A DNA stretch of 64,000 nt from Actinoplanes oblitus. Lineage in GTDB: Bacteria > Actinomycetota > Actinomycetes > Mycobacteriales > Micromonosporaceae. Below, in pieces: positions 42,639 to 55,426 of the stretch (positions are counted from its first letter, which is position 1; each line of letters begins with the position of its first letter). The stretch covers positions 1,503,501-1,567,500 of the forward strand of contig NZ_CP126980.1 in NCBI RefSeq assembly GCF_030252345.1, given 5' to 3'. A program made the translations under genes and the position numbers. Below the pieces are notes generated by a model, which saw only the letters and a program-made list of their open reading frames with translations, searched no databases and was not told where the DNA came from.

Positions 42639-45098
42639 GTGAAGAAACAGATCCTCACCCTGGCGGCCGTTGTCGCCGTCGTCCTGGCGGCGGCGCCACC
42701 GGCCGCCGCCGATCCCGAACCCGTCTGGCACGCCGGCGTCCCGCCGCTGGCCACCCCGTGGACCGACCAGGTCGGCCCGGACAACGCCCTGCCCGAGTAC
42801 CCGCGCCCGCAGCTCACCCGCGGCCGGTGGCAGAGCCTCAACGGGATCTGGCAATTCGCCAAGGCCGCCACCGGCCAGGCCGTGCCGACCGGGACCACCC
42901 TCGGCGAGCGCGTGCTGGTGCCCTACCCGATCGAATCCGCGCTCTCCGGCATCCAGCGCCACGAGGACCGGATGTGGTACCGCCGCACCTTCACCGTCCC
43001 GAGCGGCTGGGACATCAACACCGGCAACCGGCTCCGGCTCAACTTCGGCGCCGTCGACTACGACGCCAAGGTCTACGTGAACGGCAAGCTGGTCGCCACC
43101 CACCGCGGCGGCTACGACAAGTTCGACGCCGACGTCACCGACGCGCTGACCGGCGGCGGCGAGCAGGAACTGATCGTCTGGGCCGAGGACCTCACCGACG
43201 CCACCGGCCAGCCGATCGGTAAGCAGCGCCGGACCAGCGACCACGGCATCTTCTATCAGGGCAGCTCGGGCATCTGGCAGACCGTCTGGATGGAGCCGGT
43301 CCCGGCCAGCGGCATCACCGGGCTGCACCTCACCCCGGACCTCGGAGCCGGCGTCCTGCGGCTCACTGTCGACGTCGCGGGACGCGAGGACCTGCAGGTC
43401 AAGGCCGTCGCGCGGGGCAGCGGCACGGTGGCCGGCAAGATCCAAGGCGCTTCCGGTACGGAGTTGGCCCTCCCGGTGACCCGCCCGCACCTCTGGTCGC
43501 CCGACGACCCGTACCTCTACGACCTCGACGTCTCCCTGGTCGACGGCAGGACGACGGTCGACAAGGTCGGTTCGTACTTCGGGATGCGCTCGGTCGGCAC
43601 CACCAAGGGTGAGGACGGCCGGCTGCGGATCACCCTGAACAACAAGATCCTGTTCAACATGGCCAACCTCGACCAGGGCTTCTGGCCGGACGGCCTGTAC
43701 ACCGCACCCACCGACGCGGCACTCAAGTGGGATCTCCGCAAGGACAAGGAGATGGGCTTCAACGCGGTGCGCAAGCACATCAAGGTGGAGCCGGACCGCT
43801 GGTACTACTGGGCCGACAAGCTGGGCCTGATGGTCTGGCAGGACATGCCGGCGGCGAACACCGGCCCGATCCCCGCGGAGTGGCGCGGCCAGTTCGAGGC
43901 CGAGCTGCACGAGATGGTCCGCGAGCACCAGAACTGGACCTCGATCGTCGCCTGGGTGCCGTTCAACGAGGGCTGGGGCGAATGGGACCGGGCCGCCACC
44001 GGCCGGATCGCCGACGAGGTCAAGGCGCAGGACCCGACCCGCCTGGTCAACGCGCACAGCGGGGTGAACTGCTGCAACTCCAAGGGCGACGCGGGCCGCG
44101 GCGACGTGATCGACTTCCACCAGTACCTCGGCCCGGCGTCACCGCGGCCGACGACCGAGCGGGTGTCGATCGACGGCGAGCACGGCGGATACGGCCTCAA
44201 GGTGTCCAACCACATGTGGTTCGGGGACGGCAACGCGTACCAGATGACGCCCGACAAGGCGACGCTGACCAGCCGGTACGTGCAGAACCAGGAGGACGTG
44301 CTCACCTCCGCGCAGCGCTGCGGGATCAGCGCGGCGATCTACACCCAGCTCTCCGACGTCGAGGGTGAGCTGAACGGCTTCTTCACCTACGACCGCCGGG
44401 TCACCAAGATGGACCTGGCCCAGGTCAAGGCGATCAACCAGAAGATCATCGCGGGCGCCGACGGCACCACCGCCGGCATCCCGCAGCCGGGCCCCGGCAC
44501 GCCGGGGCTGAGCGGGGTCGCGTTCTGGCCGCTCGACGGGTCGTTCGGCGACCTCACCGGAGTCAACGGCCCCACCTTCACCGACGGGCACACCGGCCAG
44601 GGCGTCGCGTTAAACGGCAGCGACCAGTACCTGGACGCCGGCCGCGCGGTCCTGAACACCGCCGCCGACTACTCGGTCGCGGCCTGGGTCAAGCTCGACA
44701 AGGCGGACGGCGCGTTCCAGACCGTGGTCAGCCAGGACGGCGCCGCCAACAGCGACTTCTTCCTGCAGTACTCGGGCGCCGACCAGCGCTTCGCGATGAG
44801 CAACGCCAGCGTCCGGGCACTCGGCCCGGCCAAGCCCGAGACCGGCCGCTGGTACCACCTGGTCGGCGTGCGCGACTCGGTCAGGGGCGAGCTGCGCCTC
44901 TACGTCGACGGCGCGCTCGCCGGCACCGCCGACGCCTGCCTGCCGCAGGCCGCCCCGACCGGCCACACGGTGATCGGCCGGGGCAGGTTCGGCGGCAACC
45001 CGGTCGACTACCTGGACGGCACCGCCGACCAGGTCCACCTCTACGACCGCGCGCTGTCCGCCGCCGAGATCCAGCAGCTCTACGCCACCAACCAGTAG
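42639..45098 (+). CDS. Secreted GH2-family glycosidase with C-terminal LamG domain
   Basis: 819 residues. Signal peptide 1-25 (ILTLAAVVAVVLAAAPPAAA). GH2 layout: sugar-binding jelly roll (about 35-220), immunoglobulin-like domain (about 225-320), TIM barrel (about 325-610) with the acid/base Glu in NEGWGEWD near 443. Residues 626-819 form a concanavalin/LamG-like domain (AFWPLDGSFGDLTG, GRWYHLVGVRDSVRGELRLYVDG). GH2 covers beta-galactosidases, mannosidases and glucuronidases; the substrate is not settled here. A strong ribosome site (AAGGAG) lies upstream and a terminator follows, so it is monocistronic. Confidence 0.85.
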   Translation: MKKQILTLAAVVAVVLAAAPPAAADPEPVWHAGVPPLATPWTDQVGPDNALPEYPRPQLTRGRWQSLNGIWQFAKAATGQAVPTGTTLGERVLVPYPIESALSGIQRHEDRMWYRRTFTVPSGWDINTGNRLRLNFGAVDYDAKVYVNGKLVATHRGGYDKFDADVTDALTGGGEQELIVWAEDLTDATGQPIGKQRRTSDHGIFYQGSSGIWQTVWMEPVPASGITGLHLTPDLGAGVLRLTVDVAGREDLQVKAVARGSGTVAGKIQGASGTELALPVTRPHLWSPDDPYLYDLDVSLVDGRTTVDKVGSYFGMRSVGTTKGEDGRLRITLNNKILFNMANLDQGFWPDGLYTAPTDAALKWDLRKDKEMGFNAVRKHIKVEPDRWYYWADKLGLMVWQDMPAANTGPIPAEWRGQFEAELHEMVREHQNWTSIVAWVPFNEGWGEWDRAATGRIADEVKAQDPTRLVNAHSGVNCCNSKGDAGRGDVIDFHQYLGPASPRPTTERVSIDGEHGGYGLKVSNHMWFGDGNAYQMTPDKATLTSRYVQNQEDVLTSAQRCGISAAIYTQLSDVEGELNGFFTYDRRVTKMDLAQVKAINQKIIAGADGTTAGIPQPGPGTPGLSGVAFWPLDGSFGDLTGVNGPTFTDGHTGQGVALNGSDQYLDAGRAVLNTAADYSVAAWVKLDKADGAFQTVVSQDGAANSDFFLQYSGADQRFAMSNASVRALGPAKPETGRWYHLVGVRDSVRGELRLYVDGALAGTADACLPQAAPTGHTVIGRGRFGGNPVDYLDGTADQVHLYDRALSAAEIQQLYATNQ

Positions 45099-45160: not shown

Positions 45161-46048
45161 TCAGCGACCCGGCACGACGTCGTCCACGGCTCGCAGGAAC
45201 GCCCGGAGCAGCGGCGTCTCGCCGGCTCGGCGCCAGACCGGCGCGTACTCGAGCACCGGCGCGTCGGCGATCGGCAGGAAGACCATGTCCGGGCGTACCC
45301 GGGAGACGGTGGCCTGCCTGCCGATCGGCGAGATGACGCCGCCGGCGCTGATCGCGCTGAACGCCTCGTTGAGGGTGGACACCGGGGTCCCGCGCCGGAT
45401 CGGCCGCCCGGCCGGGGTCACCGGCGGGGTGTGCGCCGCCCAGACGTAGTCCGGGATCGGCCCGTCCGGACAGACCACCGGGTGGTCGCCGAGGTCCTCC
45501 ATCTCGACCTTCTCCCGGCCGGCCAGCGGGTGACCGGGCGCGACGGCGAGCACCAGCGGCTCGGTGAACAGGACCGGCCCCACGGCCAGGTCCGGTTCGC
45601 GGACGGGCAGCCAGAGCAGCGCCACGTCGGCGCGACGGTCGCGCAGCACGCCGAACGGGTCGACCGGGAGCGCCTCCCGCATGCGCAGGGTGGCTTGCGG
45701 ATGCCGCTGGCGGAACAGGTCCAGGACGGCGGTGAGCTCCTGATGGTGCGTATCGAAGGCGGCCACGCTCAGAGTGCCCGCCTGACCGCTGGCGATCGAG
45801 GTGGCCTCGTCGACACCCGCCATGATCTCGGTGTACCCCGCGGTGAGCCGCTCGCGGAGTCCCTCGCCGAGGGGCGTGAGCCGGACGCTGCGGCTCGTCC
45901 GCTCGAACAGCGCGCCGCCGATCCGGCGTTCCTGCTGCTTGATCGACTGGCTGACCCGGGCCTGCGAGACGTGCAGCCGCTCCGCCGTACGCCCGAAGTG
46001 AAGCTCCTCGGCCAGGGTCAAGAAGATCTCGATGTCGCGTAGTTCCAC
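45161..46048 (-). CDS. LysR-family transcriptional regulator
   Basis: 295 residues from a GTG at 46048 with AGAGG nearby. N-terminal winged helix-turn-helix (residues 1-60, EIFLTLAEELHFGRTAERLHVSQARVSQSIKQQERRIG) and a periplasmic-binding-like effector domain (about 90-295, GTLSVAAFDTHHQELTAVL). The frame is complete. No divergent metabolic gene that would reveal the effector lies directly beside it; the next gene on the other strand starts 219 bases away. Confidence 0.92.
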   Translation of the reverse strand: MELRDIEIFLTLAEELHFGRTAERLHVSQARVSQSIKQQERRIGGALFERTSRSVRLTPLGEGLRERLTAGYTEIMAGVDEATSIASGQAGTLSVAAFDTHHQELTAVLDLFRQRHPQATLRMREALPVDPFGVLRDRRADVALLWLPVREPDLAVGPVLFTEPLVLAVAPGHPLAGREKVEMEDLGDHPVVCPDGPIPDYVWAAHTPPVTPAGRPIRRGTPVSTLNEAFSAISAGGVISPIGRQATVSRVRPDMVFLPIADAPVLEYAPVWRRAGETPLLRAFLRAVDDVVPGR

Positions 46049-46266: not shown

Positions 46267-46470
46267 ATGCCTGGATCCTCACAAGAGGTCGAGTGCGAGT
46301 TGATCGACTTGTCGTCTGTCGCTCTCGCGGAACTGCGCCAGATCGATCTCACCGAGGCCGCGGCCCGCGTTCTGCTCCGCCTGCGGAATTCCGGTGGCAG
46401 CATCAGCGGTTACAACGGCAAATTCGCCGAGCCGGGCACGGCGGCGCCGACCCACGCGCCAGGGTCATGA
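46267..46470 (+). CDS. FxsA-like candidate RiPP precursor peptide
   Basis: 67 residues from the ATG at 46267. The N-terminal 45 residues (QEVECELIDLSSVALAELRQ, then TEAAARVLLRLR) resemble the leader of FxSxx-COOH (FxsA) precursors: an acidic ELxD start and a helix of Leu/Ala/Asp. The C-terminal part SGGSISGYNGKFAEPG would be the core; it has a Tyr and Phe with Asn/Lys between them but no terminal FxSxx. Its stop overlaps the start of the HExxH gene (ATGA), so the peptide and enzyme are coupled. Precursor status is inferred from leader pattern, size and neighbour. Confidence 0.6.
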   Translation: MPGSSQEVECELIDLSSVALAELRQIDLTEAAARVLLRLRNSGGSISGYNGKFAEPGTAAPTHAPGS

Positions 46471-48335
46471 CTGTTGAGTCGGTTGCCGCGCTTGCCCGGC
46501 ATCGCCTGAGCGGTGACAGTTTCCGCACTCTCTCCGCCGGCCTCGGCGACGAACGAACGGTGGGCGAGCTTCGTTCCGCCGAGCGCAGCTGGCGCATGAT
46601 CGTGCTGTCCCTCCTCCTCGACGCGCTCGGCGGGGACACCCCGACGGGTGAACTCGCCCCGGCCGCCGACGCCTGGCAGCTCGTCGTGGCGGCGGACCGG
46701 GCGGCCTCGGCGGCAGCCGACGACGTCCTGATGCGACCACCCGTCGGGATCTGGGCCGCCCACATGCTGCGCCGGATCCAGAGATCGGCAACTGGGCCGG
46801 TGCCGCTGTGGGTGGAGGCCGGGTACCTGCACGCGCTGGCTGCGGCCGCAGCGATCCGCGCCGGGCTCTCGTTCGAGTTGACCGTGCCGGCCCGGCACGG
46901 CGTCGCGGTGCTCCCCACGCTCGGCCACTCGGTCCTGCCCGTCACCACGCCGTGGTCCACGGTGCGGGTCACGTGTCGTGATGGGGTGTTCGAAGTTCGC
47001 ACCACCGACGGAGCCTCGGTGGGGCCGGGCACCCCCGCCTGGCGGGACCCGGTCATCGTGACGGCGACCGCCGACGGTCAGGAGCTGACCGTCGAACTGA
47101 TGGACTGTGATCCCTATCGGGACCTCCGCGGCCCGACCCCGCCCCACCCGCTCCCGCCCGCCGAGATCGAGCACTGGCAGCGGCTGCTGACGGCGGCGTG
47201 GTCCCTGCTCGTCCGGGAGCAACCGGACCGCGCGCCGGCGATCGCCGCGACCGTCCGAGCGTTCACCCCCGTCGAACCCCGCGAGCGGTTCCGTCATCTG
47301 TCGGCCTCCGGCGGCGAGGCGTTCGGCAACGTGCTGCTCTCCGATCTCGACGACCCGGTGGACCTGGCGGTCACCCTGGTCCACGAGGCGCAGCACCAGA
47401 AGCTCGGCGCGCTGCTGCACCTGCTCACGCTCAGCGACGAGGATCCCGGGCATCGCTACTACGCCCCCTGGCGTGATGATCCGAGGCCGCTCGGTGGCCT
47501 GCTGCAGGGTGTCTACGCGTTCGCCGCGATCACCGAGTTCTGGGGCGGCCACCGGTCGCCCGAGCACGCCGCCCTGGCCGCCTTCGAGCTGGCTCTGTGG
47601 CGCGGTCAGACCGCCGCCACGATCCGGACACTGCTCGCCGGCGAGCAGCTGACGTCCTGGGGGCGCCGGTTCGTCGAGCACCTGCGCGAGCCGGTGGCCG
47701 CCTGCCTGCGCCGGCCGGTGCCGGAGCACGTGGACCGCCTGGCGCGGCTGGCAGCGCTCGACCACCAGGCCATGTGGCGCGGGCATCACCTGGTGGTGGA
47801 GCCGGCCACCGTGGCGGCTCTGGCGCAGGCCTGGCGACACGGCGCCCCGGCCCCGGCCGTCCCGGCCGACTCCCGGGTCACCACGTCGGCCAGTCCCGAG
47901 GTGGGGCGCTTCGACACGCGGGCGGTGCTGATCCGCTACCTGCTCACCGACCCGGACCGGTTGCGCCGGCTGCGCGACGATCCGGAGCTGCTGGCGACCG
48001 CCGTGACCGGGGCGCAGCCGGCCGACGCCGACCTGATCCGCGGTGACCGGGCCGCGGCGGCCGTGGCGTACGCCGGGCTCGTCACCGCCGACCCCGCCAG
48101 CGTGCACGGCTGGGTGGGCCTCGGCCTGGCGCTGTCCGACCAGCCGGACAGCGCGGCGGCACGTGCCCTGCTGAGCCGGCCGGAACTGGTCCGCGCGGTG
48201 GCGTGCCGGCTGGCCACCACCGCCGGCCCGGACGAGGCTCGCCCGGATCCGGTCCGGCTGGCCGCCTGGCTCGGCGCGGACCTGCCGGCGGCCTCGCCGG
48301 AGATGCCGGTGCCCGCGGTCTGGCCGGTCGCCTGA
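46467..48335 (+). CDS. HExxH peptide-modification protein, aKG-HExxH beta-hydroxylase type
   Basis: 622 residues from the ATG at 46467. The key motif is LVHEAQHQKLGALLHLLTL near 308, followed by YYAPWRDDPRPLGGLLQGVYAFAAITEFW near 335, the pattern of the HEXXH putative peptide modification domain found in FxsB-type proteins and as stand-alone enzymes. Work on fused radical SAM/HExxH proteins showed that this domain is an alpha-ketoglutarate-dependent peptide beta-hydroxylase rather than a protease. No radical SAM CxxxCxxC motif is present here. The first 250 residues and the C-terminal Ala-rich part have no recognised fold. Confidence 0.75.
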   Translation: MTVESVAALARHRLSGDSFRTLSAGLGDERTVGELRSAERSWRMIVLSLLLDALGGDTPTGELAPAADAWQLVVAADRAASAAADDVLMRPPVGIWAAHMLRRIQRSATGPVPLWVEAGYLHALAAAAAIRAGLSFELTVPARHGVAVLPTLGHSVLPVTTPWSTVRVTCRDGVFEVRTTDGASVGPGTPAWRDPVIVTATADGQELTVELMDCDPYRDLRGPTPPHPLPPAEIEHWQRLLTAAWSLLVREQPDRAPAIAATVRAFTPVEPRERFRHLSASGGEAFGNVLLSDLDDPVDLAVTLVHEAQHQKLGALLHLLTLSDEDPGHRYYAPWRDDPRPLGGLLQGVYAFAAITEFWGGHRSPEHAALAAFELALWRGQTAATIRTLLAGEQLTSWGRRFVEHLREPVAACLRRPVPEHVDRLARLAALDHQAMWRGHHLVVEPATVAALAQAWRHGAPAPAVPADSRVTTSASPEVGRFDTRAVLIRYLLTDPDRLRRLRDDPELLATAVTGAQPADADLIRGDRAAAAVAYAGLVTADPASVHGWVGLGLALSDQPDSAAARALLSRPELVRAVACRLATTAGPDEARPDPVRLAAWLGADLPAASPEMPVPAVWPVA

Positions 48336-48422
48336 CCATCAGCGCCGGTCACCGACCGGCAGCGCCGGTCGCCTGACCATCAGCGCCGGTCACCGATCCG
48401 GCAGCGCCGGTCGCCTGGCCCG
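48323..48422. repeat. 41-42-bp tandem repeat across the HExxH stop
   Basis: A unit beginning GCCGGTCGCCTGACCATCAG starts at 48323 and again at 48364; a partial third copy starts near 48406. The second copy has one extra T. The repeat runs from the last codons of the HExxH gene through its stop into the convergent gap. Each unit holds CCGGTC/GACCGG-type half sites that could form hairpins. Confidence 0.75.
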
Positions 48423-48442
48423 TCGGCCGGTTGCCTGACCGG

Positions 48443-51400
48443 TCAGAGGGGCAGCGGGTCGATGTCGCAGTTGGCTCGCAGGCCGGCCGCCGCGCTGACG
48501 GTGGCCGGGTGGGACGCGCCCAGGACGGCGCCGAAGCGGGTCAGGGTGTCGGCCAGCAGCCGCTCCCCGTCGTCGCCCCGGCCGACCCGCTTGAGGTCCA
48601 TGGCGACGTTGACAGCACAGGCCAGGGTCGTCGGATGGTTGGCACCGAGCAGGTCCCGGCACTGCCGGAGCACGATCACCCCCTCGTCCAGGGCGAGCCG
48701 TGCCTCACCGACGGCGTGGTAGTCGCTGACCACGTTGATCCGGGCGTGCAGGACGACCGGATGCTCCGGGCCCAGCCGTGCCGTGAGCCGGCGCAGGGCC
48801 CGTTCGTCGAGTTGCCGCACCGCCTCGATCTCACCCTGCAGGCGCATCGTGACGGCCAGGTTCATCTCGGCGCTGGCGGTGTGCGGATGATCGGGTCCCA
48901 GGAGGTCGCGCAGCTGGTCGGCGGCGAGCTCACCGGCCTCGCGCGCGGCGCTCAGGTTGCCCAGCACCCGCTGGTCGATCGACACGGTCAGCCGCGCGAG
49001 CGTGGTGTCCGGATAGCCTTCGCCGTAACGCTCCTGGTAGCGGATCAGAACGCCCTGGGACAGCGTCAGCGCGTTGCTCAGGTCCCCGGCCTTGCGCCGG
49101 GTGACCGCCAATTGCTGTGTCTGGCTGAGTAGCAACGCGTGCCGCTCATCCGGCAGCAGGCTGCGCAGCAGGGCGACCAGGGTCTCCTGGTCGGTCCGCG
49201 CGGTAACGTGCTCACCGAGCTCACGCCGGTCCAGGTTGATGCCGCCACGGGTCTGCAGGGTGTCCAGATGGTCGGCGCCGAGCACCTGGATCAACTGGAG
49301 GTGGGTTCGCTCGCCGAGCTGCAGGGCTCGGCTGAACATCCCCGACAGGCGGAGGCTCACCGCCAGGTTGTGGGCGGCTCGGAGGGTGAACGGCTCGCCC
49401 TCCCCGAAACCGGCGCGGGCGCGCTCGTAGACCGTCAGTGACCGGTCCAGCGCTCCGGAGAAGTCACCGGCGACCCGCAGATCCGCGGCCACCGCCCCGA
49501 TGGCGTTCAGGGTCTCCTCACGGTCGTCGCCCAGGGCTTCCCGATACAACTGGAGCGTGTCGGCGTTCAACTTGGCGGCGGCCCGGTAATCGCCCACCGA
49601 GAACTGCATGTAGCCCAGCCAGTTGGCCATCCGCAGGGCGTCGAGATGGGCCGGCCCCTCGATGCGGACCAGCACCTCGTAAGCGTGCATGGCCAGGTCG
49701 CGGGCGCCCCGGAAATCACCCCAACGGGACAGGTACCGCGCCTCGTTGAGCACCAGGTCACGCACGTAGCCGTGCCGGCACTCGGTGGCGTCCGACGCCA
49801 GTACGTGCGGGTACAGCTCGGCGTACCGGGGCCAGTGGTCGGTCTCCTCCGGCAGGTTGGGGTCGTTGGCGGCCAGCAACAGGTGGGCGCTGTGGCGCAG
49901 CAGCTCCCGCTCGTCCGGCTCCATCTGGGCGATGAGCACCCGCTGGACCAGGCGGTGCATGTGCAGTGAGTTGGTCCGGTAGTCCACCCGGGCCAGCGAG
50001 TACCGGCCGATGGTGCGTACCGCCTGGTTGAACCGGGTCGCGTTGCGCAGCACTGGATCAAGGTCCGGGTGGATGCCCAGGCCCCGGGCGTTGGACAGCA
50101 GGATCCGGCTGATCGGCTCGGGTGCGAAGAACGCGCAGACCTGCAAGAGGCGCAGCGCCGCCGGTTCCCGCTCCCGCAGGCCGATCAGCGACATGCTCCA
50201 CGCCGCCGCGACCTCCTCCGGGTAGTCCAGCGGCGGCGCGGCCGTCGGCGTACCGCCCACCGCCTCGGTCAGCGACGGCCGGCCGGCATCCAGCAGGCGC
50301 AGGTACTCGTCGGTAGCCATGCCCGTCTCGGCCATCCACGCGGCGGCCAGTTCGACCGCGAGGGGAAGGTCGCTCAACGCCTCGGCCAGCCGGGCGGCGT
50401 CGCTCTCGGCGAGGGTGGGCGCGCGCCGCCGCAGCAACTGGACGCTCTCCGCGCGGCTGAACACGTCGACCTGGATCGGGCTGGCCACCTCGACCCATTC
50501 CGGATTCCGCGAGGTGACCATGATCTTGCCGGACTCGCTGGAGGGGAAGAACGGCTGCACGTCCTCCGGGAGCTCGGCGTTGTCGAACACCAGCAGCCAG
50601 GACGCGGAGGGCCGGCCCCGGCTCAGCGCGTCGATGACCGCCGGCACCGCCGAGCCCGCCAGCGGCGGCACCGGCAGCTCCAGACGTTGCGCCAGCTCCA
50701 CGAGCGCGGTGCGGATCTGGGCCGGGCGTTCGGCAGGTATCCACCAGACGATGTCGTAGTCGTGCTGGTAGAGGTGGACGTACTCGATAGCCAGCTGGGA
50801 CTTGCCGACTCCGCCGAAACCGTGGATCGCCTCGGGCAGCACGGCGGTCGTCCCGGAACCGAGCCGTGTGTGCAGGACGGCGAGCAACTCGGTCCGTCCG
50901 GTGAAGTTCACGTTCCGGGGCGGGATGTTGCTGATGGTGGCGACCTGACGGCTCTCCCGTGTCGACACCGGCTCGGCGTCGATGCCGATGCCGAAATCGG
51001 CGCCGCGGCGGCGCTCGGGTCCGAGCAGCTCGTCGAGCCGGGCAGCGGGAATCTCCGACACATCGCCCGGCGGCACCATGGTGCCCAGCCTAGAGCCTTC
51101 CTCCCGGACCGCCGGGCGTTCCGCCAAAAGCCCCTTCAACTGGTTGGCCGCGTCCAGGTGCGGCCCGCTCAACGCCTCGTTGACCGCCAGCTCCACGCGC
51201 AGGAACGGGCGGCTGCCCTCGGTCAGGGCCGGATGATCGGCGGCGGCCGGCGCGGCGATCCGGCGGCTCAGCCCGCGCACCGCCGCCACCTCGTCACCCA
51301 GTTCGGCCTCCACGGTCCGGAGGACGTCGAGGGTCCGGTCGCGGTGACCGAGTTCCAGCAGCCGTTTCCGGACACCCTCGGCGAAGTCGAAGGTCACCCG

Positions 51401-52717
51401 GACCGGATCGGTCACCTCGCCGTCCGGCACCACCGGACGGATCAGCCCGCTGGTGAGCACCTCGGCCAGCTCGGCCGGGCCGGCCCGGGGCAGCCTGCGC
51501 TGCACGGCCAGCATCGTCCGCACGTTGAGCGGCGCGGCGGCCAGCGCCACCGCCAGCCGGACCGCGGTGGGTGAGGCCATCGCCCGGAACCGCGCGACCG
51601 CGTACTCGGCGGGCTCGCCCAGGCGGTCGTCCGCCGCGGCGGTCGCCCGGGGGTGGCTGGCCGAGACCAGGATCGCCGGCAGCGCCACCACGCCCGGCCC
51701 GATCCCGGCGACCAGATCCGCCCACCGGCGTACCCACCCGCTGTCGATCTCCAGTACCGGCACCGCGATCGGGTCGACCAGGCGGGTGGACGCCGTGCCC
51801 ACCGTGTCGATCGCCGACCTGGTCCAGGTGGTCAGCGCGGTCGGGGTCGGCCCGGTCGTCCGCAGCCAGGTCCGGCGCGGATCGAGCGCGGTCTGCGACC
51901 AGCGTTGCTGTGGCAGCGGGTTGAGCACCGCGACGACCATGTGCGCGGCCCACAGCGCGACCGCCGACTGCGCGACGCCGGTCCACCACAGGTCCGAGTA
52001 GCCGTCGGTGAAGACCAGCACCACCGTCCGGCCGGTCGGGTCCACGATGCCGCCCGGCGTCGTCGTCACCCGGCCGGCGCCGGACCCGATCTCGACGCCG
52101 CCGTGCCCGTCCGAGCCCAGCGTCCGCACCCGGACGTCGCGGAACACCCCCTGGCGTTCCAGCAGCGCGGAGATGGCCGTGGCGTGCCCGGCCCAGATCC
52201 ACATCGACGGCCCGGTGTCGACCAGCAGCACGACGTTCCAGCGGCGCTCGGTGGCCTGGCGCAGCATCGGCAGCCAGCGGCGGTCGATCATGCCGCGTTC
52301 CGCGGTGGCCTCCTCGTCGAGGATCATCTCGGTGCTGGACGGCACGTCGTGGCGCAGGCTCGCGAAGAAGTCGGTCCGCCGCTGCGCGATCGGCACGGCG
52401 GCGCGCGGTTCCCGCGGCGCCGGCTGCCGCGGGCCGGGCGGGGCCACGGCCTCGGTGCCGTCGACGGACGGCGACTCGGCCGGGGGCGGGCCGGCGGCCG
52501 GGGGAGTCCCGTCGGGCTGCTCCGCGCCGGGCCCGGGACCGGTCGTGCCGACCGGCGGGACGGTCTCGTCCGGAGCCGGCGGGGCCGGCCGCTGGGCGCC
52601 CTCGAAACCGTCGCGGCTGGCCAGCCAGAGGGCGTCGGCGATGTCCGACCAGTGCAGCGCCGTCGGCCGCGGCCACCGCTGCGGCCGCTGGTCATCGGCT
52701 CCGGTCGGCGAGGTCAT
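48443..52717 (-). CDS. Fxs-system-type protein: SAV_2336/vWA, NB-ARC and TPR repeats
   Basis: 1424 residues from the ATG at 52717, which overlaps the MoxR stop; the longer frame upstream only shadows MoxR. Residues 1-160 are an N-terminal HWSDIADALWLASRDG region and a Pro/Gly-rich linker. Residues about 135-420 match the SAV_2336 N-terminal-related domain with a vWA-like LLVDTGPSMWIW near 166 (a MIDAS-like DxGxS). NB-ARC follows with Walker A HGFGGVGKSQLA near 632, and TPR repeats fill about 930-1424. Proteins of this build are annotated as FxSxx-COOH system tetratricopeptide repeat proteins. It probably senses a signal and controls or uses the MoxR/VMAP pair. Confidence 0.82.
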   Translation of the reverse strand: MTSPTGADDQRPQRWPRPTALHWSDIADALWLASRDGFEGAQRPAPPAPDETVPPVGTTGPGPGAEQPDGTPPAAGPPPAESPSVDGTEAVAPPGPRQPAPREPRAAVPIAQRRTDFFASLRHDVPSSTEMILDEEATAERGMIDRRWLPMLRQATERRWNVVLLVDTGPSMWIWAGHATAISALLERQGVFRDVRVRTLGSDGHGGVEIGSGAGRVTTTPGGIVDPTGRTVVLVFTDGYSDLWWTGVAQSAVALWAAHMVVAVLNPLPQQRWSQTALDPRRTWLRTTGPTPTALTTWTRSAIDTVGTASTRLVDPIAVPVLEIDSGWVRRWADLVAGIGPGVVALPAILVSASHPRATAAADDRLGEPAEYAVARFRAMASPTAVRLAVALAAAPLNVRTMLAVQRRLPRAGPAELAEVLTSGLIRPVVPDGEVTDPVRVTFDFAEGVRKRLLELGHRDRTLDVLRTVEAELGDEVAAVRGLSRRIAAPAAADHPALTEGSRPFLRVELAVNEALSGPHLDAANQLKGLLAERPAVREEGSRLGTMVPPGDVSEIPAARLDELLGPERRRGADFGIGIDAEPVSTRESRQVATISNIPPRNVNFTGRTELLAVLHTRLGSGTTAVLPEAIHGFGGVGKSQLAIEYVHLYQHDYDIVWWIPAERPAQIRTALVELAQRLELPVPPLAGSAVPAVIDALSRGRPSASWLLVFDNAELPEDVQPFFPSSESGKIMVTSRNPEWVEVASPIQVDVFSRAESVQLLRRRAPTLAESDAARLAEALSDLPLAVELAAAWMAETGMATDEYLRLLDAGRPSLTEAVGGTPTAAPPLDYPEEVAAAWSMSLIGLREREPAALRLLQVCAFFAPEPISRILLSNARGLGIHPDLDPVLRNATRFNQAVRTIGRYSLARVDYRTNSLHMHRLVQRVLIAQMEPDERELLRHSAHLLLAANDPNLPEETDHWPRYAELYPHVLASDATECRHGYVRDLVLNEARYLSRWGDFRGARDLAMHAYEVLVRIEGPAHLDALRMANWLGYMQFSVGDYRAAAKLNADTLQLYREALGDDREETLNAIGAVAADLRVAGDFSGALDRSLTVYERARAGFGEGEPFTLRAAHNLAVSLRLSGMFSRALQLGERTHLQLIQVLGADHLDTLQTRGGINLDRRELGEHVTARTDQETLVALLRSLLPDERHALLLSQTQQLAVTRRKAGDLSNALTLSQGVLIRYQERYGEGYPDTTLARLTVSIDQRVLGNLSAAREAGELAADQLRDLLGPDHPHTASAEMNLAVTMRLQGEIEAVRQLDERALRRLTARLGPEHPVVLHARINVVSDYHAVGEARLALDEGVIVLRQCRDLLGANHPTTLACAVNVAMDLKRVGRGDDGERLLADTLTRFGAVLGASHPATVSAAAGLRANCDIDPLPL

Positions 52718-53769
52718 CACACACCGGTCGCCGACAGGTTGCGCCACACCGTCTCGAGCAGGCGCGTCCAGTCCGCCTCGTTTCCCGTCGCGTGCGCGCC
52801 GGAGACGGCCAGGAAGATCGCGTTGAGCAACTGGTCCGCCGCCAGCGGGCCGCGCGCGCCGCGCCGCTCGATGAATGTCCTGATCAGCTGCCGGGCGTTC
52901 TCGTCGGTGCCGGGGAAGTGGGCGGAGACCAGGTCGGCGAGCCGGTGCTCGTCCGGGTCCGGCAGGTCGAGGCGGATGCACCGGCGCAGGAACGGGGCGG
53001 GGAAGTCGCGCTCGCCGTTCGACGTGATCACCACGATCGGGAACACGTGGCAGGTCACCACGCCGTCGCGGATGACCGCGCGATGTCCCGGATCGGCGGT
53101 GTGCACCTCGACGGCGGGCATCCGGTTGCGGGCGCGGATCAGCTCGGGGATCGAGAACGTACCGTCCTCGAAGACGTTCAGCAGGTCGTTCGGCAGGTCG
53201 ATGTCGCTCTTGTCCAGCTCGTCGATCAGCAGGACCCGCGGCCGGCGGTGCGGCAGCAGGGCGGTGCCCAGCGGTCCGAGGTGGATGAACTCGCCGAGCG
53301 TCGACTCGGGGCCGGCCGCCGTCTGATCGCCGGCGGGTCGTTCGGCGGCGGCCTGCGCGCGCCCGATCGCGTCGTAGTCGTAGAGGCCGGAGCGCAGATT
53401 CGACCGGGAGGTGATCGGCCAGTGCAGGACCCGGCCCAGCCCGAGGTCGCGGGCGAGTTGATAGGCCAGGCTCGACTTGCCGGCGCCCGGGCGCCCGGTC
53501 ACCAGCAGCGGACGGAAGAGCAGCAGTGCCGCGTTGATGACGTCCAGCTGGTTGCGGTCGGGACGGACCATTCCCGGTACGCCGAGCCGGCGCGCGGTCT
53601 CGTCCGGGTAGTCCGGTGGTGGCGGCAGGTCGGGACCACCGTGGAAGGCCCGCCAGTGCGGTGGTTCCGGCCAGTCGCCGGCGTCGGTTGCCCCGCCGGG
53701 CCGGCCGGTTCCGTCGTACAGCCACCAGCCGGCGGCCGGGGGCGGGACCTGCTGGTTCCGGTCAGTCAT
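52717..53769 (-). CDS. MoxR-family AAA+ ATPase
   Basis: 350 residues from the ATG at 53769, eight bases inside the VMAP gene (ATGACTGA). An N-terminal Pro/Trp-rich region (1-68) precedes the AAA+ core: Walker A TGRPGAGKSS at 91-100, Walker B VLLIDELDKSDIDLPNDLLNVFEDG near 178, sensor 1 IVVITSNGERDFP and arginine fingers in FLRRCIRLDLPDPDEH. MoxR ATPases remodel partner proteins, usually with vWA domains that bind metal. The partner is encoded in the next gene, which carries the vWA-like domain. Confidence 0.88.
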   Translation of the reverse strand: MTDRNQQVPPPAAGWWLYDGTGRPGGATDAGDWPEPPHWRAFHGGPDLPPPPDYPDETARRLGVPGMVRPDRNQLDVINAALLLFRPLLVTGRPGAGKSSLAYQLARDLGLGRVLHWPITSRSNLRSGLYDYDAIGRAQAAAERPAGDQTAAGPESTLGEFIHLGPLGTALLPHRRPRVLLIDELDKSDIDLPNDLLNVFEDGTFSIPELIRARNRMPAVEVHTADPGHRAVIRDGVVTCHVFPIVVITSNGERDFPAPFLRRCIRLDLPDPDEHRLADLVSAHFPGTDENARQLIRTFIERRGARGPLAADQLLNAIFLAVSGAHATGNEADWTRLLETVWRNLSATGV

Positions 53770-55426
53770 CGCGAGCCTCTCTCGGTGCGCTGTCTGATGG
53801 CCAGATACGACCGGGCTGCCGATCCGGATCGTCCCACAGAACGGCGATACCGTGCCCGACGTGTTGCTCCCGGCGGCCCGCGTCCTCACTCCACGCCCGC
53901 TGCCGCAGCCGGGCCATCCGGACCGGTAGTTGCGCCAGTTCGGACGGTCCGGACGCGCCGCCACCCAGCAGCGCCGCGACCGCCGACCGCAGGCCCGAAT
54001 CGGCTGCCTGGCTGCGGTGCCAGATGAGGATCGGCAGGCCGGCCCGGAGCGCGGCGAGGGCCTGGCTCTCGCCGAGACTGCTCGGTGTCGGCGGCTGGTG
54101 GAGGACCATCGCGACGATGCCGGCGTCGCGCTTCAGCATCGCCTCGAGTCGTAGATCGGTCTGATCGGGTTCGGCGAAGTGGATCGGATGCGGCTGCCGT
54201 GGATTGTCGGTCAGCAGCCGCCAGCGTGATCGCCACAGCCGGTGCCACTCCCGGGTCTGCAGGCGTTCCAGGCTGCGGACCACCACCGGGTAGTCCATCG
54301 CCAGCGGCGTCGGTGACCGGGACGCGAGTTCCTTGCGCCAGGCCTCCACCGGGGTGTTGAGCAACTCCCAGGGCAGTACGAACTCGATCGTGACCGGCCC
54401 GTCCTTCTCCGCCCAGTCCCGCTCGGTCCGCAGCACGATCCGGTCGACCGCCGCCTCCAGCTCGTCGCGGCCGACCCGCTGGTCCTCGCCGCGGACCGGC
54501 CGCCAGACCCGCGAGGCCCACTGCCGCCAGTGCGAGACGATGTACGACTCGTCGTCGCCGCCGTACTTCTCGAACTGGATCACCAGGTACGCCATGCTGG
54601 GCCCGGGCGACGGCGCGGGCAGCTGGGCTCGCAGGGCGGCCAACTGGGCGGACAGCTTCCACTGCGCGGCCAGCGCGGTGGTCAGCTCGCGCAGCCGGGG
54701 CTCGGTCTCGGGCGGGAGCAGCGGCGTCACGGTGTGCAGGCAGCGCAGCCAGGGCGGCATGCCGTCGACGGCGTTGAGCCCGGTCAGGTAGGCGAGGACG
54801 TGCCAGGCGTCGGCGCAGTACGACGGCGCCTCGGCCGATCGGGTGGCCGCGACCAGGTGGCGCAGCGCCTCCCGCCCGCGCAGCCGGTGCAACTCCTCCC
54901 GCAGCCACGCGATGTCGTGGCCGGCGAAGATCTCGGTCACCTGCCACTCGTCCACCAGCCGGTAGAGGCCGGCCACCTGCTCGGTGTTCGGCTCCAGCAG
55001 TTCGAGGCACTCGACCAGCAGCCGTAGGCCGCCCGGCCGGGCGGCGCAGGTGGTCACCACCTCGACCAGTTGCAGGTGCGGGACCTCGTGGTCGCGGGGG
55101 AGCGGCGGCCGGCCCAGGGCGGTGTCGGCCTCCTGAAGGAAGAGCTGCCGTCCGGAGCGGCTGCGGATCGTCGGTGATTCCTCCAGGAGCGCGACGAATC
55201 GGCTGCGGAGGAGCCGGCGCTGGTGCGCACCCACTTCCGGCCCCGGAGCGGAATCAGGTGTCTCCGGCATGCGGCTGAGCACCGTCCAAAAGCGTCGTAG
55301 CTCGGTTGGGTCGTAGCTCGGTTGGCCTTCCCCTGAAGGCATGCTAATTGGTGGGCATGCGTACCGCGCAAGCGTTGACAGGCATTCACGTTCGCCGATC
55401 GGAATGACCTCATCCGTCCGGTCCAT
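53762..55426 (-). CDS. VMAP-like (vWA-MoxR-associated) protein with EAD-type N-terminus
   Basis: 554 residues from the ATG at 55426; ATGs at 55342 and 55270 cannot be excluded, as no start has a clear ribosome site. Residues about 65-150 (HQRRLLRSRFVALLEESPTIRS, then LQLVEVVTTCAARPGGLRLLVECLELLEPNTEQ) look like an effector-associated domain 2, a death-like adaptor that recruits a matching effector. The C-terminal 330 residues resemble VMAP-C (MAYLVIQFEKYGG, VTIEFVLPWELLNTPVEAW, AMDYPVVVRSLERL). VMAPs are the third part of ternary vWA-MoxR conflict systems described by Aravind and colleagues. It is the first gene of the operon. Confidence 0.75.
   Translation of the reverse strand: MDRTDEVIPIGERECLSTLARYACPPISMPSGEGQPSYDPTELRRFWTVLSRMPETPDSAPGPEVGAHQRRLLRSRFVALLEESPTIRSRSGRQLFLQEADTALGRPPLPRDHEVPHLQLVEVVTTCAARPGGLRLLVECLELLEPNTEQVAGLYRLVDEWQVTEIFAGHDIAWLREELHRLRGREALRHLVAATRSAEAPSYCADAWHVLAYLTGLNAVDGMPPWLRCLHTVTPLLPPETEPRLRELTTALAAQWKLSAQLAALRAQLPAPSPGPSMAYLVIQFEKYGGDDESYIVSHWRQWASRVWRPVRGEDQRVGRDELEAAVDRIVLRTERDWAEKDGPVTIEFVLPWELLNTPVEAWRKELASRSPTPLAMDYPVVVRSLERLQTREWHRLWRSRWRLLTDNPRQPHPIHFAEPDQTDLRLEAMLKRDAGIVAMVLHQPPTPSSLGESQALAALRAGLPILIWHRSQAADSGLRSAVAALLGGGASGPSELAQLPVRMARLRQRAWSEDAGRREQHVGHGIAVLWDDPDRQPGRIWPSDSAPREARDD

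Follow-up and report, generated by a model that had tools for sequence, protein, structure and literature searches.

Gene content and organization of the locus

A locus of five genes was analysed in a 64,000 nt stretch of the Actinoplanes oblitus genome (contig NZ_CP126980.1, positions 1,503,501 to 1,567,500; the whole stretch is referred to here as the window), in which a gene pair encoding a 67-residue precursor peptide and an HExxH enzyme faces a three-gene operon encoding a VMAP protein, a MoxR-like AAA+ ATPase and a protein composed of SAV_2336/vWA, NB-ARC and TPR regions. Judged by its sequence and domain models, the locus is a ternary system of the VMAP-MoxR-vWA kind that carries a peptide-processing accessory and belongs to a published type except for its peptide motif. 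VMAP-type ternary systems are predicted to act in biological conflict.

Direct reading of the sequence confirmed all five genes to the base at the positions named in an initial annotation, as well as the layout described there (67-residue peptide, ATGA coupling, overlapping operon and 1424-residue vWA protein; Table 1). The stop codon of the peptide gene and the ATG of the HExxH gene overlap by four bases (ATGA). In the operon, ordered VMAP, MoxR, vWA according to gene positions and domain models, the VMAP and MoxR-like genes overlap by 8 bases and the MoxR-like and vWA genes by 1 base. The two units are convergent, with their stop codons 107 bases apart.

Table 1. Features of the five-gene locus (window positions) and of the second system, L088, of the same genome
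Feature	Position	Strand	Evidence
Precursor peptide gene, 67 aa	46267..46470	+	Direct reading, homologues, dN/dS
Leader motif ECELIDLS	46291..46314	+	Alignment of 29 peptides
Conserved core GGSISGYNGKF	46393..46425	+	Peptide alignment, 20 rows of clade
aKG-HExxH-type enzyme, 622 aa, probable peptide beta-hydroxylase	46467..48335	+	
HExxH motif HEAQH, residues 306-310	47382..47396	+	Alignment of 30 homologues
SAV_2336/vWA - NB-ARC - TPR protein, 1424 aa	48443..52717	-	Models and reading
N-terminal segment of vWA protein HWSDIADALWLASRDGF, residues 22-38	52604..52654	-	Alignment, regular expression
DEEATAER... segment preceding vWA domain, residues 134-152	52262..52318	-	Regular expression
vWA metal-site strand VVLLVDTGPSMWIWA, residues 162-176	52190..52234	-	Alignment
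NB-ARC/AP-ATPase region, P-loop GFGGVGKS, about residues 598-936	49910..50926	-	Models
TPR region, about residues 980-1423, limits approximate	48449..49780	-	Pfam-type models
MoxR-like AAA+ ATPase, 350 aa	52717..53769	-	Model and reading
VMAP protein, 554 aa (EAD2, VMAP-M0, VMAP-C)	53762..55426	-	Models
EAD2 adaptor domain, residues 78-159	54950..55195	-	PF19956, 66.6 bits (cut-off 23.8)
VMAP-C domain, residues 277-534, predicted CHAT/separase-like fold	53825..54598	-	Predicted structure
L088, second system, MoxR-less; also HExxH, vWA/NB-ARC/TPR, VMAP	Genome 3315000-3334900		
L088 caspase-like-EAD2 gene	5828-7288 of L088 stretch	+	
L088 peptide gene	7396-7614 of L088 stretch	+	

The vWA/NB-ARC/TPR protein matched NF040586 (FxSxx_TPR; 823.8 bits, cut-off 300) and NF041121 (SAV_2336_NTERM; 323.2 bits, cut-off 200), and its vWA metal-site residues (DTGPS and TDG) were seen to be intact. 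Its N-terminal extension holds the helical and DEEATAER segments; the motif published for this region is [D/E]xxx[D/E]xxxa, of which an exact match was not pinpointed. The MoxR-like protein matched AAA_5 (22.6 bits, cut-off 22) and displays Walker A (GRPGAGKS) and Walker B (LLIDELD) motifs. By eye, its N-terminal WWLYDG and PHWRAF correspond to the published WxhapG and PsWRxa motifs, with His at the 'small' position of the second. It represents the only such protein found in the host genome (E 1e-30).

The gap between the convergent stop codons is filled by a GC-rich tandem repeat (48323-48446, 21/41-base units). Upstream of the peptide gene lie genes for a glycosyl hydrolase family 2-like protein with a C-terminal laminin-G-like domain (42639-45098) and, directly upstream, a LysR regulator (45161-46048), neither of which showed any sign of membership in the five-gene system.

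Comparison with described systems

According to the accessible part of Kaur 2020 (PMC7159879), to which all mentions of that study here are limited, small peptide and HExxH genes occur in about 20% of actinobacterial VMAP systems, with peptides of four types (FxSxx, RxD, acidic and FtsH-associated). A radical S-adenosylmethionine (rSAM) enzyme accompanies FxSxx peptides, and an AP-ATPase/TPR region is fused to vWA in systems with RxD or acidic peptides. The window shares with the RxD/acidic subtype its VMAP > MoxR > vWA order, this fusion, the combination of an HExxH gene with a small peptide, and the lack of an rSAM gene. However, its peptide has an SGY[N/S/Q] core and ends in THAPGS, i.e. 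neither in RxD nor in a run of four acidic residues, its enzyme is better read as a hydroxylase, and its nearest relatives are often without MoxR.

The FxSxx-COOH (Fxs) systems, which produce ribosomally synthesized and post-translationally modified peptides (RiPPs), have in common with the window the FxSxx_TPR equivalog NB-ARC-TPR protein and the HExxH domain, whereas the window possesses neither an FxSxx motif nor FxsB in the locus. The 'Fxs-like' label first given to the peptide was not upheld, as it lacks an FxSxx end and gave no match at E 0.1 to the models of NCBIfam, Pfam or PADLOC. The absence of an rSAM gene, initially regarded as unusual, is expected because rSAM enzymes go with FxSxx peptides and the vWA fusion marks non-FxSxx systems; Kaur 2020 describes exactly this rSAM-free form. 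Furthermore, no above-cut-off FxsB-type enzyme was found genome-wide in 6 of 19 genomes with related systems (G175, G093, G197, G121, G096 and G082), four of them with the window's peptide class, and a need for an rSAM enzyme in trans was rejected on this ground. The host genome does encode two such enzymes, the nearest above-cut-off copies being at 583894 and 5690759, which could in principle convert the peptide to an ordinary cyclophane RiPP in trans; given the missing FxSxx end and the six genomes above, this is considered very improbable. The copy at about 5690759 (L114) shares a single 876-aa frame with an HExxH domain. It has an NB-ARC/TPR relative nearby but lacks VMAP, and represents an Fxs-type system distinct from the five-gene locus.

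The precursor peptide

Homologues and substitution rates indicate that the peptide is a real gene. Three further homologues exhibit 72-84% identity, and comparison with the orthologue in G105 over 60 codons gave a non-synonymous rate (dN) of 0.20 and a synonymous rate (dS) of 0.81, with 24 of the 47 base differences at codon position 3. Alignment of a chosen set of 29 peptides revealed the leader consensus [IVM]E[SC]EL[LI]DLS, which is likely to be the part recognized by the enzyme. The 20 members of the window clade follow the patterns E-[LM]-x-D-L-S (leader) and S-[IV]-[SN]-[GD]-[YF]-[NSQ]-[GP] (core). The core aromatic position is Y in 19 rows and F in one, the next residue is N (10), S (9) or Q (1), and the core-terminal position is F in 19 of the 20. 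Asn50 was rejected as a conserved modified residue because the four nearest relatives carry Ser there.

An RVD end was observed in one of the 20 clade members (L094), and the peptides of sister systems have RxD termini, either SGYNPQR(L/I/V)D or PRxN(I/L)GxxxPPGRAD. Given these sister-system ends, the SGY class seems to be a relative of the RxD type with an acquired tail. The GGSISGY[N/S/Q] core falls outside the four published peptide classes and is apparently new.

PosA, the substrate of the HEXXH enzyme PosC, ends in ARMD, the oxidative removal of which leaves an amide (accessible part of PMC12636437, here and below). A shared chemistry may act on the RxD ends of VMAP peptides; no published statement of this link was found in the portions of the literature available. 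RxD-type peptides such as those of L021 and L118 carry a C-terminal PPGRAD, which resembles the ARMD end. In Streptomyces (L012-L017 and L020), two divergent peptide/HExxH pairs, whose peptide cores differ (SLGGYNPQRDE and SV-SDF type), stand together at a single VMAP locus.

The HExxH enzyme

The HExxH protein matched TIGR04267 (mod_HExxH; 173.5 bits, cut-off 40), and H306, E307 and H310 are invariant in 30 aligned homologues. Its predicted fold, HExxH motif and PWR-D-RP and EFW motifs are shared with the aKG-HExxH hydroxylases ChlH, SjiH and PflC/PosC; unlike these, it is a stand-alone protein with a C-terminal helical extension of ~180 residues, and its substrate has no known cyclophane. 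Together with the ChlH/SjiH structures, these features suggest that it is probably a peptide beta-hydroxylase.

In Kaur 2020, the HExxH protein is read as a metallopeptidase that would cut the small protein and set free its C-terminal part to act as a toxin or an amplifying signal. The zincin-like active site of the family fits this proposal, as does the ability of PflC to hydrolyse truncated substrates (PMC12636437). Conversely, the relatives of solved structure, SjiH and ChlBH, either are 2-oxoglutarate oxygenases by description or cluster with such enzymes, and the characterized relatives ChlH, PflC and PosC hydroxylate peptides (PMC12636437). Sequence and predicted fold thus favour the hydroxylase named in the initial annotation, and a metallopeptidase appears unlikely. 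A middle way may be that the backbone is cleaved oxidatively, as PosC/PflC do at ARMD.

Co-inheritance of the gene pair and the operon

Relatives of the window VMAP were found at 45 places (46 rows, one place being in two pieces) in 37 of 200 genomes of the family. An HExxH gene like that of the window lies within 9 kb of 40 of these places, based on 68 of the places listed for HExxH relatives in the 200 genomes; for the remaining five (L130-L133 and L136), no HExxH gene was seen in the stretches inspected. Trees of HExxH, NB-ARC/TPR and VMAP were compared for 56 systems, some of them paralogues within one genome; of 53 splits, 42, 43 and 43 were shared, whereas 200 label shuffles never yielded more than 2. 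Part of this congruence stems from shared species history. In the nearest orthologous locus, G105, the five genes occur in the same order, and the four large proteins exhibit 66-84% identity.

These comparisons support the view that the pair and the operon belong together and are jointly inherited, in line with the link originally proposed. Their opposite strands and convergent arrangement would be compatible with independent neighbours, a reading rendered hardly conceivable by the co-occurrence and the tree congruence. Moreover, when loci were collected with the HExxH protein, an NB-ARC-TPR relative lay within about 10 kb in 72 of 80, while rSAM/SPASM (by regular expression) was present in 40, VMAP in 31 and both together in just two. 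As the constant companion of the HExxH protein where rSAM and VMAP alternate, the NB-ARC-TPR protein is the probable target of the peptide.

Loss of MoxR and of associated vWA segments

MoxR is missing between VMAP and vWA in 21 of the 40 HExxH-linked VMAP places. The second system of the host genome at 3.32 Mb (L088) is MoxR-less, as is a copy in G105 that stands in tandem with the window orthologue. A general supply of MoxR in trans was rejected because 12 of the 21 lie in genomes with no match similar to the window MoxR (E 1e-30; ten candidates scored per genome, so that a divergent MoxR could escape). In the NB-ARC/TPR tree (58 rows: 25 with MoxR, 32 without and one unlabelled), the MoxR state changes at least six times, five of which are forced by starred branches; in the VMAP tree (77 rows), it changes at least seven times, four of them forced. 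Nine of 66 systems were dropped as duplicates by vWA sequence, L028 (contig end) was left out of the MoxR label counts, and the window system is outside the 56/57-system vWA-segment and EAD2 counts but inside the tree counts.

The DEEATAER segment was detected by regular expression in 39 of 44 MoxR-bearing systems, compared with 1 of 33 MoxR-less systems. VMAP loci of other families have MoxR in 19 of 20 cases, and by eye all 19 have this segment; the twentieth (L153) lacks both. The helical N-terminal segment HWSDIADALWLASRDGF matched in 21 of 25 MoxR-bearing versus 1 of 32 MoxR-less systems, and in just 4 of the 19 MoxR-bearing systems of other families. Phylogeny-corrected independent-pair tests of the covariation were not significant (p 0.125 and 0.25). 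We read the loss of DEEATAER as loss of a putative MoxR-docking region. Kaur 2020 describes the three-gene set as strictly preserved, and a literature search for MoxR loss found nothing, although the source data tables of that study may hold such cases. MoxR-less relatives with vWA-segment loss apparently represent a new variation.

The VMAP protein and its EAD2 partners

EAD2, VMAP-M0 and VMAP-C (PF20028; 166.9 bits, cut-off 27) were all above Pfam cut-offs. Structure prediction assigns VMAP-C to the CHAT/separase branch of the caspase-hemoglobinase fold. It differs from CHAT proteases (Craspase Csx29) and separase in having no conserved Cys and no His/Cys pair, and no significant sequence or profile similarity. 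Among 39 aligned VMAPs, the best Cys column is occupied in 21 (position 474), the His columns 395, 470 and 522 have no Cys partner, and the CHAT profile gave no match at E 10. Using hhalign, probabilities of VMAP-C against CHAT/separase were 0.44-0.56, with controls at 0.22-0.62. VMAP-C is accordingly modelled as a CHAT/separase fold without the catalytic pair, an assignment that is apparently new.

In 25 of 56 systems (one of 26 matches, a neighbouring VMAP, was removed), the peptide/HExxH pair is immediately preceded by a gene for an EAD2 protein in the same orientation, apparently a new observation in these related sequences. Seventeen of these proteins carry caspase-like WGGHG/WSGHG and D-x-C motifs (His/Cys pair). 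Other EAD2 proteins scanned were trypsin-EAD2 (L012), TIR-EAD2 (L105 and L056) and nucleosidase-EAD2 (L109), of which the L056 and L109 genes are placed differently from the upstream-of-peptide position. The L012 gene sits between its two peptide/HExxH pairs. In the host genome, three EAD2 places were found, two belonging to the VMAPs and one to the caspase-like L088 protein. According to Kaur 2020, EAD2 recruits signalling peptidases.

Proposed mechanism and significance

The explanation that we somewhat favour is a VMAP-type ternary conflict system with a peptide-processing accessory, in which the peptide sets an NB-ARC-TPR switch. The 67-residue precursor would be bound via its leader by the Fe(II)/2-oxoglutarate HExxH enzyme and hydroxylated in the GGSISGY core. 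TPR domains bind peptides, and the modified peptide would be the ligand of the TPR part, setting the on/off state of the protein. MoxR would act on the vWA part, scaffolded by VMAP, and so control the switch, and the EAD2 domain of VMAP would recruit a signalling enzyme that also carries EAD2 and is of caspase-like type in the nearest relatives. For the window system, recruitment would need to be in trans, since the sole EAD2 partner found in the host genome belongs to L088 at 3.32 Mb. As the likely outcome, the cell would arrest or die, or a developmental decision would be taken. We infer the roles of the peptide as TPR ligand, of recruitment in trans and of this outcome; it is plausible that peptide and hydroxylase provide a defence or developmental switch with its output or its signal.

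Several observations weigh against this explanation. A PADLOC search of the system gave no defence match beyond weak ATPase hits, and the residue following the core Tyr is variable (N, S or Q), being Ser in the four nearest relatives. The proposed TPR-peptide binding is drawn from gene association and general TPR biology. The caspase assignment depends on sequence motifs together with NCBIfam matches below threshold (E 0.022 to 2e-7), and 31 of 56 systems, as well as the window locus, have no EAD2 partner.

It is possible, if doubtful, that the system serves mycelial actinobacteria as a switch of development or secondary metabolism instead of defence, with peptide and enzyme reporting the oxygen/2-oxoglutarate state. 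The enzyme is cofactor-dependent, and its relatives occur in 129 of the 200 family genomes (E 1e-15), a high number for a defence gene; however, this count covers all relatives, including rSAM-linked ones, and the VMAP form occurs in just 37. In addition, the swapping of EAD2 effectors (caspase-like, trypsin, TIR and nucleosidase) resembles conflict systems. Within the favoured conflict system, we tentatively suggest, while regarding it as rather unlikely, that VMAP could be a pseudo-protease adaptor analogous to animal cFLIP, its death-like adaptor domain EAD2 being joined to a catalytically dead CHAT/separase-type domain that would regulate EAD2-borne caspase-like enzymes. The hydroxylated peptide sensed by NB-ARC-TPR would feed in, and MoxR would be a removable layer, lost several times with the putative vWA docking segments.

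The ternary systems, so far known as immune-like machines by prediction, are widespread, and the present branch offers a defined enzyme-substrate pair that is open to assay. From its natural MoxR-less versions one can learn which parts the system can do without and which segment of vWA is a candidate for contact with MoxR. Finally, VMAP-C, an orphan domain until now, may be read from its predicted structure as a dead relative of separase/CHAT proteases, a reading that stands beside a caspase-like partner with the same adaptor domain, EAD2.

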